A stretch of DNA of 45,877 nt from Gammaproteobacteria bacterium. Its GTDB lineage: Bacteria > Pseudomonadota > Gammaproteobacteria > Thiohalomonadales > Thiohalomonadaceae. Shown one piece after another: positions 39,326 to 45,877 of this stretch; positions within the stretch are counted from its first letter, which is position 1; every line of letters starts with the position of its first letter. The notes below the pieces were generated by a model. It worked only from the letters and a program-made list of their open reading frames with translations, did not search any database and was not told where the DNA came from. Where the stretch lies: the NCBI GenBank assembly GCA_026196575.1, contig JAPHSX010000025.1, positions 1 to 45,877 of the forward strand, read 5' to 3'. Position numbers and translations under genes: made by a program.

Positions 39326-40090
39326 TCAGTCGAGTCGGGTGGAGACGAAGCTGCCCTGTTGCACCGCCTCTTGATCGGCACGCAGCTGCTGTTGCAGGGG
39401 CACGGCCCCCTCGGCGCTGGTCTGCCCCCACTGCTCGAAATAGACCAGTTCATCGAGGGGCAGGCGTGGCCGCCAGTTGGCGCTCTCCAGTTCGGGTTTG
39501 TCGAAAAAGTGCGAGACATAGCCGATGCACAGGTAGGCGATGGGGACGATGTGGCGGGGAATGGCCAATATGGTCTGCAGCTCCCGCTGATGAAAGATGC
39601 TGACCCACCCCACGCCCAGCCCTTCGGCGCGGGCCGCCAACCATAGATTCTGCACCGCGCAGACGCTGCTGTAGAGGTCCATGGTCTTCATGTGGGTTCG
39701 CCCCACCACCACCGGGCCGGCGCGCTCCCGATCACAGGTGATACAGAGATTGAGCGGCGCCTCCAGGATCCCCTCCAGCTTGAGACGCTGGTATACCTCG
39801 CGGCGTTCGTCATCGAACATCACGGCGGCCTCGGTATTGGCCGCCACGAAGGCGTCGTGGACCCGCTGCTTGAGCTGTGGCGAGTTGATCAGCAGAAAGT
39901 TCCAGGGTTGCATGAAACCGACCGACGGCGCGTGGTGGGCCGCCGTAAGGATACGGCTTAGCACGGCGGCGGGAACGGGATCCGGTTTGAATTGACCGCG
40001 CACGTCACGGCGTGTCAGCACGGCCTGATAGAGTCCGGCGCGCTGCTCATCGCAGAGGCGGTGTGGCGAGAGTGGGTTCTGGTTTTCCAT
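39326..40090 (-). CDS. bluB: 5,6-dimethylbenzimidazole synthase
   Basis: A 254-residue nitroreductase-fold enzyme that breaks down reduced FMN with oxygen to give 5,6-dimethylbenzimidazole, the lower ligand of vitamin B12. TRRDVRGQFKPDPVP is the BluB signature; AAHHAPSVGFMQPWNFLLI and AEGLGVGWVSIF bind flavin. The frame is open upstream to 40525, but the ATG at 40090 (MENQNPLSPH) with AAGGGGA ahead is the true start, since the extra part is riboswitch and MITE. A cobalamin riboswitch precedes it, so B12 should repress it. Confidence 0.95.
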   Translation of the reverse strand: MENQNPLSPHRLCDEQRAGLYQAVLTRRDVRGQFKPDPVPAAVLSRILTAAHHAPSVGFMQPWNFLLINSPQLKQRVHDAFVAANTEAAVMFDDERREVYQRLKLEGILEAPLNLCITCDRERAGPVVVGRTHMKTMDLYSSVCAVQNLWLAARAEGLGVGWVSIFHQRELQTILAIPRHIVPIAYLCIGYVSHFFDKPELESANWRPRLPLDELVYFEQWGQTSAEGAVPLQQQLRADQEAVQQGSFVSTRLD

Positions 40091-40149
40091 GGTTAGTCCC
40101 CTTGTTTGGAAAAACCGGGAGCGCCTGACCATACGCGTCCTCTTATCCT

Positions 40150-40645: not shown

Positions 40646-42271
40646 TTAAATGCCGGTCACGCTGCCGCTATTATCCAGATCGATGGCGTGAGCGGCCGGT
40701 TCGCGCGGTAGCCCCGGCATGGTGACGATGTCACCGGTAAGTGCCAGCAGGTAGCCGGCCCCGGCGGCGATGCGCACCTGCTCCACCGGCAGGGTGAAGC
40801 CGTCGGGATGGCCGGGCCTTTTCGGGTCATCGGAGAGGGAGAGGTGGGTCTTGGCGATGCAGATCGGCAGGGTGTCGTAACCCAGGGCGGTGACCTGGGC
40901 CAGATCCCTGCGGGCGCTGCGGCTCAACTCGATCCCGGCCGCGCCGTAGATGGTGCGGGCGACGGCGCCGATCTTCTCCTGCGGTGACTGGGCGAGATCG
41001 TAGAGGTAGCGCACCGGCGGCGGTGGCTTTGCCGCCATCTCCATCACGGCGGCGGCCAATGCCTCGGCGCCGCGACCGCCCTCACGATAGGCAGTGGTAC
41101 GGGCACAGTGCAGACCGCGCTCGCGGCACCCCTGCTCGATGGTCAGCAGCTCCTCCTCGCGGTCGGCATCAAAAACATTGATCGCGATCACCGGCTCAAA
41201 GCCGAAACAACGCACACTCGCCACGTGGTGGTCGAGGTGCTCCAGGCCACGCACGATCTCCTCTGGCGTACCATTGGCAGAGAGGCTGCCGCAGCCGTGA
41301 ATGCGTAACGCCCTCACCGTCACTACCAGCACCACCGCATGGGGCCAGAGCCCGGAGCTGCGGCACTTGATGTCGAAGAACTTCTCCGCCCCCAGGTCGA
41401 AGCCGAAGCCCGCCTCGGTGACTACGTAGTCGGCCAGGGTGGCGGCGGTACGGGTCGCCACCACCGAGTTGCAGCCGTGGGCGATGTTGCCGAAGGGGCC
41501 GCCGTGTACCAGCGCCGGCACCCCCTCGGTCGACTGCACCAGGTTGGGCAGGCGGGCGTCATGCAGCAGGGCGGCCATCGCACCGGTGGCGTTCAGCTTG
41601 TCGGCGGTGACGGGGACACCGTCCCGATCAAACCCCACCAGGATCTGCCCCAGCCGTCTCTTGAGGTCGTCGATCCCCTCGGCGAGGGCGAGGATCGCCA
41701 TCACCTCGGAGGCGGCGGTGATATCAAAACCGGCCTCGCGCGGCACGCCGTTGGCGCGCCCGCCGAGGCCGATCACCCCCTGGCGCAGCGCCCGGTCGTT
41801 GACATCGAGCACCCGCCGCCAGAAGAGCTGACGGTGCTCCAGGTCGAGGCCGCTGTGGTGGTGAATGACGTTGTCGATCATCGCCGCCAGCAGGTTGTGC
41901 GCCGCCCCCACCGCGTGGATATCGCCGGTAAAGTGCATGTTGATGCGGGTGGCCGGTTCCAGCTGACAGCGGCCGCCGCCGGTGCCACCCCCCTTGATGC
42001 CAAAGATGGGGCCGAGTGAGGGCTCGCGCAGGGCCAGGGCAACGCGTTGCCCGAGCCGTTGCATCCCCTGCGCCAGACCGATGGAGACGGTGGTCTTACC
42101 CTCGCCGGCGCGGGTCGGGTTGATTGCCGAGACCAGGATGATCCTGCCGCTGGGAGATGTGCCGGCTGGCGCTAAAACCTCACCTCTTAACTTCGCCATC
42201 TCATCGCCATAGATAAACAGTGACTCAGGCGAGAGCCCCAGCCGGGCGGCGGTCTCGATAATGGTGGCCAT
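40646..42271 (-). CDS. fhs: Formate-tetrahydrofolate ligase
   Basis: A 541-residue cytosolic enzyme that activates formate with ATP to 10-formyltetrahydrofolate. The P-loop-like NPTRAGEGKTTVSIGLAQG, REPSLGPIFGIKGGGTGGG, FTGDIHAVGAAHNLL, and the C-terminal TGDIVTMPGLPREPAA are all diagnostic. The usual PTPAGEGKTT reads PTRAGEGKTT here, a mild change. The gene lies 55 bases after the sulfotransferase-like gene on the same strand. It may feed purine synthesis or one-carbon flow from formate; no partner folD is in the window. Confidence 0.96.
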   Translation of the reverse strand: MATIIETAARLGLSPESLFIYGDEMAKLRGEVLAPAGTSPSGRIILVSAINPTRAGEGKTTVSIGLAQGMQRLGQRVALALREPSLGPIFGIKGGGTGGGRCQLEPATRINMHFTGDIHAVGAAHNLLAAMIDNVIHHHSGLDLEHRQLFWRRVLDVNDRALRQGVIGLGGRANGVPREAGFDITAASEVMAILALAEGIDDLKRRLGQILVGFDRDGVPVTADKLNATGAMAALLHDARLPNLVQSTEGVPALVHGGPFGNIAHGCNSVVATRTAATLADYVVTEAGFGFDLGAEKFFDIKCRSSGLWPHAVVLVVTVRALRIHGCGSLSANGTPEEIVRGLEHLDHHVASVRCFGFEPVIAINVFDADREEELLTIEQGCRERGLHCARTTAYREGGRGAEALAAAVMEMAAKPPPPVRYLYDLAQSPQEKIGAVARTIYGAAGIELSRSARRDLAQVTALGYDTLPICIAKTHLSLSDDPKRPGHPDGFTLPVEQVRIAAGAGYLLALTGDIVTMPGLPREPAAHAIDLDNSGSVTGI

Positions 42272-42326: not shown

Positions 42327-42860
42327 TCAGGCCGAGGCGTTGTGGCGGGTCTGCCATTCGGCGAGCGCCGCCGGTAAATTTCCCTCGGCACCGATGCGCT
42401 GCCAGAACTCGCTAAAATCCGTTTGTGCCTCTTCCAGCCTGAATGCCATCTTGTTGCTCTTGTCTTTAAGAAAGCATGCGATATTGGTCTCGACGGTAGC
42501 AAGATAATCGAGGGCGATGTCGTGGGCCGCGGGTGCGCCCTCCAGCTCCAGCAATATCCCCTCGCGATAGGCGTGCAGGATGCCGAATTCACTGCGGTGG
42601 GCGAAGCTTGCGGCGGTCGCCTCACGCTCACGGCTGAGGTGGACATAGAAGGCGTGGTCGCCATATTTTTGATCGAGACGGCCGAGGAACCAGCTGAGGC
42701 GGTTGTCGGCCTCGATGTGGTTGGCCGGGTAGTTGAGGCGCTGCGGGCCGATGAGTCCGCAGCGCGACTCATGCAGCGCGCTGTAGTTGCGAATGTGGCT
42801 ACAGGCGCGGATGAAGGTGGTGGAGCCGCAGCGGCCGCTGTTGAGGATAAAGATGTTCAT
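42327..42860 (-). CDS. Small sulfotransferase-like protein
   Basis: A 177-residue protein whose N-terminus MNIFILNSGRCGSTTF fits the 5'-phosphosulfate loop of PAPS-dependent sulfotransferases (residues 7-16, GRCGST). LSREREATAASFAHRSEFG resembles the 3'-phosphate binding block with its arginine and serine. It is shorter than most sulfotransferases (250-300 residues). The ATG overlaps the stop of the glycosyltransferase-like gene (TGATG), so the two are coupled. I infer sulfation of a sugar or lipid made with its neighbours; the acceptor is unknown. Confidence 0.72.
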   Translation of the reverse strand: MNIFILNSGRCGSTTFIRACSHIRNYSALHESRCGLIGPQRLNYPANHIEADNRLSWFLGRLDQKYGDHAFYVHLSREREATAASFAHRSEFGILHAYREGILLELEGAPAAHDIALDYLATVETNIACFLKDKSNKMAFRLEEAQTDFSEFWQRIGAEGNLPAALAEWQTRHNASA

Positions 42861-44554
42861 CAAGGGTTTGTCCCGCTAGCCAGCACGCCTTCCCAGCGCA
42901 CTCGGTCGTCCTGGTAGCTGAGGAGGGCGCCAACGATCTGCTGCCGGCGCCGGGCGCGGTGCGCGCTAGAGCGGATCTGTCGATAACCTGCGGCGTCATC
43001 CCCGAAGTTGTCCTCCATATTGGTGATGAATCGCTGGAACTGCTCTCGGGTGGCCACCAGCGCTTCACCCTGTTGCCACCACTGATCACGCCCTTCAAAC
43101 AGGGCGCGCAGGGCGGCGATCTGCTGCATGATCTCTCCATGGCGGGTAGTGTAGTTGTGTAACATCTCGGTCTCGACCTGCTGCACCAGCGCCTCAACCT
43201 CGGCCGCGCTCAGCACCGTTGCCGGGTAGCCCTGTGCGGTGAGCCGCTCCATCGAGAAGAGCATCACATCACCAAAAAACTGCCGCTCGAACTCGCCGCA
43301 GAGGTCGACCGTGTGCTGCTCGCGTTCGATCCCCGGACGAAACTCCGACTGGCCCGTCTCCTCCACGGTGCGCTTGTGCAGCATCGGCAGGTTGGCGGAG
43401 ACAAATTTATCGCCAAGTTCCGCCTTGATGATGCGCCCCAGTACCGGACCTGCCATGCGCAGTTTTAATGTGGCGAAGGGGATGAAGTAGCGCAGTGCCG
43501 TGGCACGAAAACAGTAGTTGCCGGTGTAGACGGTACGCGCCGGGGTGATGCTCTCGGCCAGGGGGCGGTGTTCGTAGTAGCTCTTGCGTGTCGGGTGTTC
43601 GCCGTCGAAGAAGCGGTTGAGCTGGGCGGCGAAGTCGGTGAGGCAGGCAGCGTGGTCATGGTCACCCGCGAGGGTGCACCGGTAGTCGAAGGTCCCCCCC
43701 CTGGTCTTGAAACCGAACAGGTCGGCCATGTCGTGGTAGGCCGCATCATCACAGCTTTGCCGCGGCGTGCCATGAAAGTGGCAGGGGATGCTGGCCATGG
43801 TGTGGGCCATCGCGCCGAGGAAGGTGCTGACATCCGCGAGAAATCTGCCGGCCATCACGGCGGGGGAAACCGGCGGGTCACCCACCACCTTGCCGGTGAG
43901 AATGGCGACATCGCGCTCGCTGAAGATCCTGTCCAGCTGATAGAGGTAGTTGATGGCGTAGAGGTTGCGCTCGCCAGAGGGGGTTGCCACCTTGACCTGA
44001 AACTCCTGGTCGCTGTCGATGAAATAGATAAGGATATCGTCACGCCCCGCCACCATCTCGTTGAGCTTAAGGTAGGCGATGTTGCGCATCAGCGAGGCGC
44101 CCTTGTGGTAGAAGGCACTGACGGGGGTGTCGCCAATGATCGGCATCAGCCCGCTACGGCTGGCGCTATCAAGTCGATCCAGTTGCGCCAACTGCTCATG
44201 CTGACCGAAGTAGTGGCAGGTGAGGCCGCGTTGATCATAATCGGCGGCGATCTGGCGGTGACGTTCGATGTTGTCGCTCGCCTTGCTGTCGTCGGCGATC
44301 AGCACCTCGACCATGCGATAGCGTCCCGCCTCCTTGCCACCGTAGCCGAAGGTGTCACACAGCGTCAAGATACTGCCAAGACACGCAGCCAGCTGTTGCG
44401 GGCGGTCGGCCACCGGGATGACGATGATGAAGTGGTGGCACGGCTCATCGCCAGGGCGCTGCCGCTCCAGCTCACGAAACTGCTGCTGGTAGACGGCGAG
44501 CCGCTGCGCGTTATCGGGTTGCTGCCACAGCGCCGTTTCCAGTTGCTCAATCAT
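42860..44554 (-). CDS. Glycosyltransferase-like (GT-A fold) protein, unknown specificity
   Basis: A 564-residue soluble protein with no membrane helix. A GT2-like N-terminus has FIIVIPVADRPQQLAACLGSIL (about 42-63), ADDSKASDN (87-95), and a DxD-type FIDSDQEF (Asp180/Asp182), probable nucleotide-sugar and metal sites. The next part, with MRNIAYLKLNEM and AILTGKVVGDPPVSP, looks like an acceptor domain. The C-terminal third is helical and Gln/Glu-rich. It lies five bases after the TPP-enzyme gene and overlaps the sulfotransferase. I cannot place it in a named family with confidence. Confidence 0.68.
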   Translation of the reverse strand: MIEQLETALWQQPDNAQRLAVYQQQFRELERQRPGDEPCHHFIIVIPVADRPQQLAACLGSILTLCDTFGYGGKEAGRYRMVEVLIADDSKASDNIERHRQIAADYDQRGLTCHYFGQHEQLAQLDRLDSASRSGLMPIIGDTPVSAFYHKGASLMRNIAYLKLNEMVAGRDDILIYFIDSDQEFQVKVATPSGERNLYAINYLYQLDRIFSERDVAILTGKVVGDPPVSPAVMAGRFLADVSTFLGAMAHTMASIPCHFHGTPRQSCDDAAYHDMADLFGFKTRGGTFDYRCTLAGDHDHAACLTDFAAQLNRFFDGEHPTRKSYYEHRPLAESITPARTVYTGNYCFRATALRYFIPFATLKLRMAGPVLGRIIKAELGDKFVSANLPMLHKRTVEETGQSEFRPGIEREQHTVDLCGEFERQFFGDVMLFSMERLTAQGYPATVLSAAEVEALVQQVETEMLHNYTTRHGEIMQQIAALRALFEGRDQWWQQGEALVATREQFQRFITNMEDNFGDDAAGYRQIRSSAHRARRRQQIVGALLSYQDDRVRWEGVLASGTNP

Positions 44555-44559
44555 GACAC

Positions 44560-45877
44560 TTAGCGGCGCGAGGAGTAGTTGGGGAACTTGTCCTTGTTAA
44601 TCACCATCTCGATGAGATTGATGCCGCCGCGCAGATCGTCCTCGGCAAACATCTGTTCAATATCCGCCTCCGATTCAAGCTTGCGATAGTGGATGCCGAA
44701 GGAGTGGGCCAGCGCCGCAAAGTCGGGGTTGATGAAATCGCAGTTGATGTAGCGCCCCTGGTAGTGCTGGTGCTGGTTCTTGCGTATCAGACCCATGGTG
44801 GCGTTGTTGAACAGCAGCACGTTGAGCGGCAGCCGGTAGTTGACCGCGGTCATCAGCTCCATGCAGCACATCTGAAAACCGCCGTCGCCGAGGATGGCGA
44901 AGGTGGGCTTGGGCTCGGCAAAACGGGCGCCGATGGCCGCCGGGATGGCATGGCCCAGCGAGGAGACGCCGGAGTTGGGGTGATAGCGGTTGCCGCTGGC
45001 CACCTGGAAGAAATTCTGCGCGAAGATGATGTTGTCGTCGAACACCACCGCGTCTTTCGGGAAGTGCTGCTCTAGGCTGGAGAAGAACCGCTTCACCAGC
45101 GAGAAACCCGACTGGAAGATCGCATAGTCGTTGTTGGCCGAGCCCTTCAGCTCGGCGATGCGTGCCCGCGTCGCGCTGCCGTCGCGCTGCTCCCCTTCAA
45201 GACGGCGCAGCAGGTCGTGCAGCACCTCGTTAATCTCGCCCTGTACCGCGATATCGGCCTGGAATACCTTGTCCAGCTGCTCGGGGTCGTTATCGATCTG
45301 CACCAGGGTGCGCTCGCCAAGCAGCCGCTGCTCCCACAGGTAGCTGGTGCGCTCGTTGAAACTGGCGCCGAGAAAGAGGATGAGGTCGGCGTGCTCCACC
45401 AGGTACTGGTAGGCGTGGCCGCTGGAGGTGACACCGAGGCTGCCAAGGGAGAGCGGCGAGCGCTCGTCGATCACCCCCTTGGCCTTGAGGCTGCTGGCAA
45501 CCGGAATGGCCAGCTGCTCACTGAGCTGTATCACCTGTTGTTGTGCCCCGGAGCGGATCGCGCCGAAACCGGCGACGATCACCGGATTCCTTGCCGCCAG
45601 CAGCGCCTCGGCGATGGCGGCGGTAGAGTGTGAGGCGCCGTTCAGGCGGCGCGGCCGTCGGGTGGTGACGATCTCATCAAGAATGGCATCGTCCACCAGC
45701 TCGCTCTGCACGTTAAAGGGGAAGCTGAGCAGCACCGGGCCGGGGTTGGGGGAGAGCAGGATCTTCGAGGCGCGATTCAGTGCCTGCGCCAGGTAATCGG
45801 TGCGCTCGATGATGCGATTGTAGCGGGTGATCCCCTTGAACAGGGCGAGCTGGTCGATGCTGCCCCCCTCACCCGAG
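44560..45877 (-). CDS. Thiamine-diphosphate enzyme, acetolactate-synthase-like (N-terminus cut)
   Basis: The last 439 residues of a ThDP-dependent enzyme; the start lies beyond the right edge. The visible part begins in the ALFKGITRYNRIIERTDYLA block typical of the N-terminal pyrimidine-binding domain's end, then has the middle domain, and the pyrophosphate-binding domain with LGDGGFQMCCMELMTAVNY and NNATMG, the GDG-to-NN metal motif. It resembles the large subunit of acetolactate synthase, but no small subunit gene is seen. Its partners are a glycosyltransferase-like and a sulfotransferase-like gene, so a role in modified sugars or lipids is more likely than in valine synthesis. Confidence 0.85.
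   Translation of the reverse strand, partial: SGEGGSIDQLALFKGITRYNRIIERTDYLAQALNRASKILLSPNPGPVLLSFPFNVQSELVDDAILDEIVTTRRPRRLNGASHSTAAIAEALLAARNPVIVAGFGAIRSGAQQQVIQLSEQLAIPVASSLKAKGVIDERSPLSLGSLGVTSSGHAYQYLVEHADLILFLGASFNERTSYLWEQRLLGERTLVQIDNDPEQLDKVFQADIAVQGEINEVLHDLLRRLEGEQRDGSATRARIAELKGSANNDYAIFQSGFSLVKRFFSSLEQHFPKDAVVFDDNIIFAQNFFQVASGNRYHPNSGVSSLGHAIPAAIGARFAEPKPTFAILGDGGFQMCCMELMTAVNYRLPLNVLLFNNATMGLIRKNQHQHYQGRYINCDFINPDFAALAHSFGIHYRKLESEADIEQMFAEDDLRGGINLIEMVINKDKFPNYSSRR

Follow-up and report, generated by a model that had tools for sequence, protein, structure and literature searches.

A recurring gene trio encoding a thiamine diphosphate enzyme, a GT-A-fold protein and a small sulfotransferase, a probable biosynthetic module in Proteobacteria

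Three adjacent minus-strand genes at the end of a 45,877-nucleotide stretch of DNA from a gammaproteobacterium of the family Thiohalomonadaceae (here the window, part of contig C12 of the genome G000, which comprises 2.74 Mb in 74 contigs) encode a thiamine diphosphate (ThDP)-dependent enzyme, a protein with a glycosyltransferase A (GT-A) fold, and a small sulfotransferase of the type that uses 3′-phosphoadenosine 5′-phosphosulfate (PAPS). This trio is an undescribed module assembled from known enzyme superfamilies, and our data suggest that it probably serves as a compact cytosolic biosynthetic module, in which a core of a ThDP enzyme and a nucleoside diphosphate (NDP)-sugar enzyme is combined with an exchangeable tailoring step. 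The module is defined by gene identity, conserved linkage, shared presence and absence, active-site motifs and predicted folds, and we rank it in this general form above any specific product. An earlier note on the same DNA had described an uncharacterised operon of these three enzyme types, and both points are borne out: the genes and their classes were recovered by Pfam, alignments and predicted structures, and a literature search returned neither a report of this ThDP/GT/sulfotransferase trio nor an assigned function.

Results

Conserved linkage and exchange of the third gene

When the GT protein was used as a query against a bacterial and archaeal genome collection, 58 loci were obtained, all but one of them titled as Proteobacteria or subgroups thereof, and many bear names of sulfur oxidisers or symbionts, including Thiodiazotropha, Sedimenticola, Endoriftia and Thiobacillus. 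The ThDP gene is present at 48 of these 58 loci, always on the strand of the GT gene, and at 36 loci the third gene, again on the GT strand, is a sulfotransferase of the type found in the window. At seven loci this place is taken by a second, unrelated sulfotransferase (Sulfotransfer_3-like) on the opposite strand, at five by a PaaK-like adenylate-forming enzyme, and the remaining ten, four of which reach a contig edge, have no third gene; two types of third gene never occur together (0/58). A quick tree of the GT proteins places the second sulfotransferase type in a single clade and the PaaK-like type in two groups, and a minimum of three changes of the third gene is needed to explain the typed rows. 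As the capping enzyme is swapped while the core pair stays, the core product is likely constant and the cap variable. Dozens of genomes show the same reading frames in the same order, with protein identities of about 40–85%, and the trio therefore does not represent a chance arrangement. Searches by gene order covered 20 genomes, none of which was new. The module is rare overall, since only three full-length GT matches (including that of G000) and one weak partial match were found in 398 sampled genomes of the phylum.

The second line of evidence is a presence/absence profile of 56 relatives, in which ThDP homologues were counted at E<1e-120. The GT gene was found in 15 relatives, and the ThDP relative in the same 15 and in G003, whose genome is 82% complete. 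The sulfotransferase is present in 14 of the 15 GT-positive relatives and in no others, the exception being G054, which has the second sulfotransferase type (L092). The pattern extends to genomes in which the genes are dispersed: in G009, the ThDP gene lies 1.2 Mb from the GT and sulfotransferase genes, and in G005, the sulfotransferase gene is on a separate contig. Recurrence of the trio, on which the functional proposal of the earlier note depended, was hence seen both as linkage at the 58 loci and as a common distribution among the relatives.

The profile also revealed a fourth gene, for an S-adenosylmethionine (SAM)-dependent methyltransferase (Methyltransf_24), which occurs in 12 of the 15 GT-positive relatives and in no others, even though it is on a separate contig in G000 and G001. 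It is located downstream of the trio in convergent orientation at 24 of the 36 sulfotransferase loci, within about 240 bases at 14 of these, and it is missing from all 12 loci that carry the second sulfotransferase or the PaaK-like third gene. Two lineages, the g8 genus and G012, have the methyltransferase gene overlapping or abutting a gene for a nucleotide-sugar dehydrogenase, and their dehydrogenases are only about 33–36% identical to each other. A linkage with sugar-nucleotide genes, which the earlier note had named as support for its reading if recurrent, appeared in these two lineages beside the co-occurring methyltransferase. In the window genome, the methyltransferase gene is directly followed, on its own strand, by the genes for EarP, at a distance of 6 bases, and EF-P.

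The three proteins

Among the proteins of the trio, Pfam recognises only the domains of the ThDP enzyme. Its alignment shows the conserved glutamate of the KHEQ motif and the GDG and NN motifs, which, together with the ThDP decarboxylase domains, it shares with BbmA, the closest solved sequence, and with acetohydroxyacid synthase (AHAS), the next closest. A literature search on BbmA or CsmA found nothing, and the BbmA reaction was not used as evidence. In contrast to AHAS, the ThDP enzyme of the trio belongs to a separate subfamily that scores under all NCBIfam cut-offs shown.

The GT-A-fold protein was modelled by AlphaFold2 with a pLDDT of 89. The top VIA structural matches of this model are MtdL and rice UAM, both members of family GT75 (Z 17.3–16.4, root mean square deviation (rmsd) 2.9–3.6 Å, 280–297 residues), with MtdL in the best row (Z 17.3, rmsd 3.0 Å, 292 residues, most of the model covered), and other GT-A enzymes score lower (Z ≤15.3). 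DxD and H-x-R residues are common in GT-A enzymes, and D180, D182, H393 and R395 are invariant in 44 of 44 sequences of the family. In MtdL, Mn2+ and diphosphate are held by the DxD motif, His287 and Arg289 (PMC9937993). H393 and R395 have the same spacing as the two MtdL residues and may correspond to them. The likeness to GT75 (MtdL, plant UAM/RGP) comprises the GT-A fold, with its core and C-terminal helix region, and possibly the DxD motif and the later H-x-R motif, whereas the protein of the trio is larger (564 residues), has a Cys/His-rich insert and long C-terminal helices, and gives no Pfam RGP match. Residues C258, H261, C293 and H299 are conserved in the family. C258, H261 and H299 are lost together in a Hydrogenophilales homologue (L065:2139-3917) whose third gene is a PaaK-like ligase, and this joint loss of three of the four residues suggests that they form one putative C2H2 metal site, possibly zinc-binding. 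At best, Pfam gave weak Glycos_transf_2 matches, which reached an E of 0.002 and were confined to 7 of the 44 members, and PDB profile searches with the GT and sulfotransferase alignments returned nothing credible. At L073:4004-5812 and L067:893-2724, the GT gene is present as two open reading frames (ORFs), owing to a frameshift or a sequencing error or because it is a pseudogene.

For the sulfotransferase (AlphaFold2 model with a pLDDT of 93), the best VIA matches are the curacin and olefin-synthase sulfotransferase domains and tyrosylprotein sulfotransferases (TPSTs) with Z 13.9–12.2, led by the curacin sulfotransferase 4gbm (Z 13.9, rmsd 3.5 Å, 166 residues); sulfotransferases head the list, ahead of kinases from the same P-loop class. 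The GRCGS loop, H31-E32, R78 and S86 are shared by all 35 sequences without exception. We take GRCGS to be the loop for the 5′-phosphosulfate of PAPS, R78 and S86, which are eight apart, to be the 3′-phosphate pair, and E32 to be the catalytic base. No Pfam sulfotransferase family matched above its cut-off, and Sulfotransfer_3 was hit by only 2 of the 35 members (best E 0.074); its assignment is therefore based on fold and motifs and does not place it in a named Pfam family. On these grounds, it looks like a PAPS-dependent enzyme, sharing the fold, the GRCGS loop, the R78–S86 spacing and, by our assignment, E32 with known PAPS-dependent sulfotransferases (the curacin and olefin-synthase domains, TPST, Cpz8 and SgdX2), but with only 177 residues it is smaller than most proteins of related structure and remains below every Pfam sulfotransferase cut-off. 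Two further genomes of the phylum, both without the GT gene, also have homologues (L087:9727-10302 and L088:9733-10392), so that the sulfotransferase family extends beyond the module. The neighbouring genes of these two loci showed no common context. None of the three proteins of the trio has an evident transmembrane segment (maximum 19-residue hydropathy 0.8–1.4).

Organisation and borders of the locus

In the ORF list, the order of the trio is ThDP gene, GT-like gene and sulfotransferase gene (Table 1). The tight coupling described in the earlier note stands as far as the 5-base gap between the ThDP and GT genes is concerned, and for the TGATG overlap of the GT and sulfotransferase genes it holds provided that the sulfotransferase starts at the ATG preferred by most homologues; it had to be amended in that the ThDP gene is truncated where the contig stops. 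The window ends within this gene. Contig C5 opens with the final 12 bases of the window, and the ThDP reading frame runs on from there. We infer that C12 and C5 join across the ThDP gene, and a full-length homologue in the same layout is present in the sister genome G001 (L019). On C5, a divergent gene lies directly upstream, which makes the ThDP gene the first gene of the operon. The suggestion that the trio is the end of a glycan cluster was therefore abandoned, as was that of a tail of any long cluster: the operon starts with the ThDP gene, and different genomes have unrelated genes beside it.

Beyond the trio, there are genes for a formate-tetrahydrofolate ligase and a BluB-type synthase, both of which look unrelated to it. 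The ligase gene was found beside the trio in none of the fetched loci, and a BLAST search with the ligase matched only the window and its own copies; the ligase is therefore regarded as a neighbour and not as a part. ORF clusters 4 and 25, which run antisense to the sulfotransferase and ThDP genes, were set aside as artefacts. In G009 (L090:932-8206), four consecutive genes for proteins of about 600 residues abut or overlap downstream of the sulfotransferase gene, and the one that was scanned is AAA-ATPase_like/PDDEXK_9.

Table 1. Positions of the trio, its neighbours and the co-occurring methyltransferase. Positions without prefix refer to the window.
Feature	Position	Strand	Remarks
ThDP-dependent carboligase/decarboxylase	44560-45876	-	C-terminal ~438 of ~556 residues; open 5′ end; Pfam TPP_enzyme_M and TPP_enzyme_C
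ThDP N-terminal piece, first ~117 residues	C5:3-353 (L099:3-353)	-	Profile of the ThDP family; frame continues
GT-A-fold protein, 564 residues	42860-44554	-	Without a Pfam family; fold nearest to GT75 NDP-sugar mutases; AlphaFold2 and alignments
Small PAPS-type sulfotransferase	42327-42863	-	178 residues from TTG; 177 residues from the likely ATG at 42860
Formate-tetrahydrofolate ligase	40646-42271	-	Pfam FTHFS; 55 bases downstream of the trio
BluB-type 5,6-dimethylbenzimidazole synthase	39326-40093	-	Beyond the trio
Divergent gene upstream of the ThDP gene	L099:534-980 (C5)	+	
Methyltransf_24 methyltransferase, window genome copy	G000:C31:45230-45823 (L115)		

Discussion

In the pathway that we propose, the ThDP carboligase would form a carbon–carbon bond from a 2-oxo acid, and the GT75-like GT-A enzyme would act, with the help of a divalent metal, on an NDP-sugar, either as a mutase or as a transferase. 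The core product would then be capped by the third enzyme, which in the window genome would be the PAPS-dependent sulfotransferase, and in other lineages the second sulfotransferase family or the PaaK-like acyl/aryl-activating ligase. The SAM methyltransferase, encoded in unlinked or convergent position, may take part in most genomes of the sulfotransferase type. The product could be a sulfated, sugar-derived small molecule or a cell-envelope group, and it is as conjectural as the substrates and the order of the steps.

Several points weigh against this proposal. The sequence holds no direct evidence for any substrate, and the trio is not regularly accompanied by any further pathway gene, its other neighbours varying from genome to genome. 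At the GT loci L029, L063 and L073, the neighbouring ThDP gene or third gene is missing despite sufficient room. The relatives share ancestry and are not independent, so that the Fisher values of the co-occurrence (1e-12 to 8e-10 for all 56 relatives, 2e-5 to 7e-4 within the family) overstate the evidence. As to the GT-A-fold protein, its GT75 membership is not seen by sequence, since the protein of the window has no match to Pfam RGP (PF03214) at E<=1; the 25 families listed for the 44 sequences do not include RGP, and PF03214 was found neither in G000 nor in a scan of 200 genomes of the phylum. In addition, Arg159 of MtdL, which is the glycosylated arginine, has no clear counterpart; in the alignment, no arginine between D182 and R323 is invariant.

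In one rival reading, the ThDP gene would supply an additional acetolactate synthase to branched-chain amino acid synthesis, and its neighbours would be incidental. AHAS models do match, but TIGR00118, the AHAS equivalog, gives 389 bits for the full-length homologue, below its cut-off of 538, and a true ilvB (882 bits) adjoined by ilvN and ilvC is found on C44, on account of which a housekeeping acetolactate synthase was rejected. An ilvN-type small subunit gene, whose presence would have spoken against the earlier note, is absent beside the ThDP gene, which is flanked by the GT gene downstream and the divergent gene upstream, and the substrate tryptophan of AHAS is replaced by asparagine in 27 of 27 homologues at the position aligned with the tryptophan of yeast AHAS. 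Together with the linkage to, and co-occurrence with, the GT and sulfotransferase genes, this makes such a role highly improbable, in line with the earlier view that the enzyme is not the housekeeping one.

Two other explanations differ from our proposal in the nature of the product, and we regard each of them as unlikely. In one, which is the idea of the earlier note, a C-branched sulfated sugar is made: a YerE-like ThDP enzyme would attach a branch derived from a 2-oxo acid to a keto-sugar nucleotide, the GT-A protein would isomerise or transfer it, and the sulfotransferase would sulfate the glycan. YerE-like ThDP decarboxylases branch NDP-keto-sugars in lipopolysaccharide (PMC12247030), and a sugar-nucleotide partner is plausible in view of the GT75-like fold of the neighbouring protein and the NDP-sugar dehydrogenases that two lineages have close to the methyltransferase. 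The likeness to YerE is one of superfamily, and the closest solved ThDP enzymes are BbmA and then AHAS. Moreover, the surroundings of the trio contain no recurring gene for a dehydratase, a deoxysugar, an O-antigen or export, and none for making a 4-keto-deoxysugar nucleotide, a negative that covers the neighbourhoods of the loci, and the operon begins at the ThDP gene. In the other explanation, the product is a non-carbohydrate small molecule such as an osmolyte or a signal, with an acyloin or tertiary alcohol formed by the ThDP enzyme, glycosylated by the GT and finished as a soluble metabolite by sulfation, acylation or methylation. This would fit three proteins without evident transmembrane segments, the lack of recurring export or polymer genes, the exchangeable tailoring gene, and the natural-product sulfotransferases Cpz8 and SgdX2 among the structural matches, but the link to NDP-sugar dehydrogenases points to sugar nucleotides, and no natural-product assembly gene recurs in the examined loci. 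The module of a constant ThDP/NDP-sugar core with an exchangeable cap thus remains the reading that we favour. A bolder version of it, which we put forward only tentatively, is that the module makes a new sulfated metabolite of sulfur-oxidising chemolithotrophs by means of a new GT75-like family with a Cys/His-rich, possibly zinc-binding insert and a dedicated ThDP carboligase, with sulfation, another sulfation enzyme and acyl/aryl activation as interchangeable caps.

In summary, the module occurs in free-living as well as animal-symbiotic sulfur oxidisers, and two of its proteins belong to no Pfam family. It offers a case of tailoring enzymes that are swapped on a constant core, and provides a defined small set of genes with which it can be asked whether sulfur oxidisers make a dedicated sulfated metabolite.

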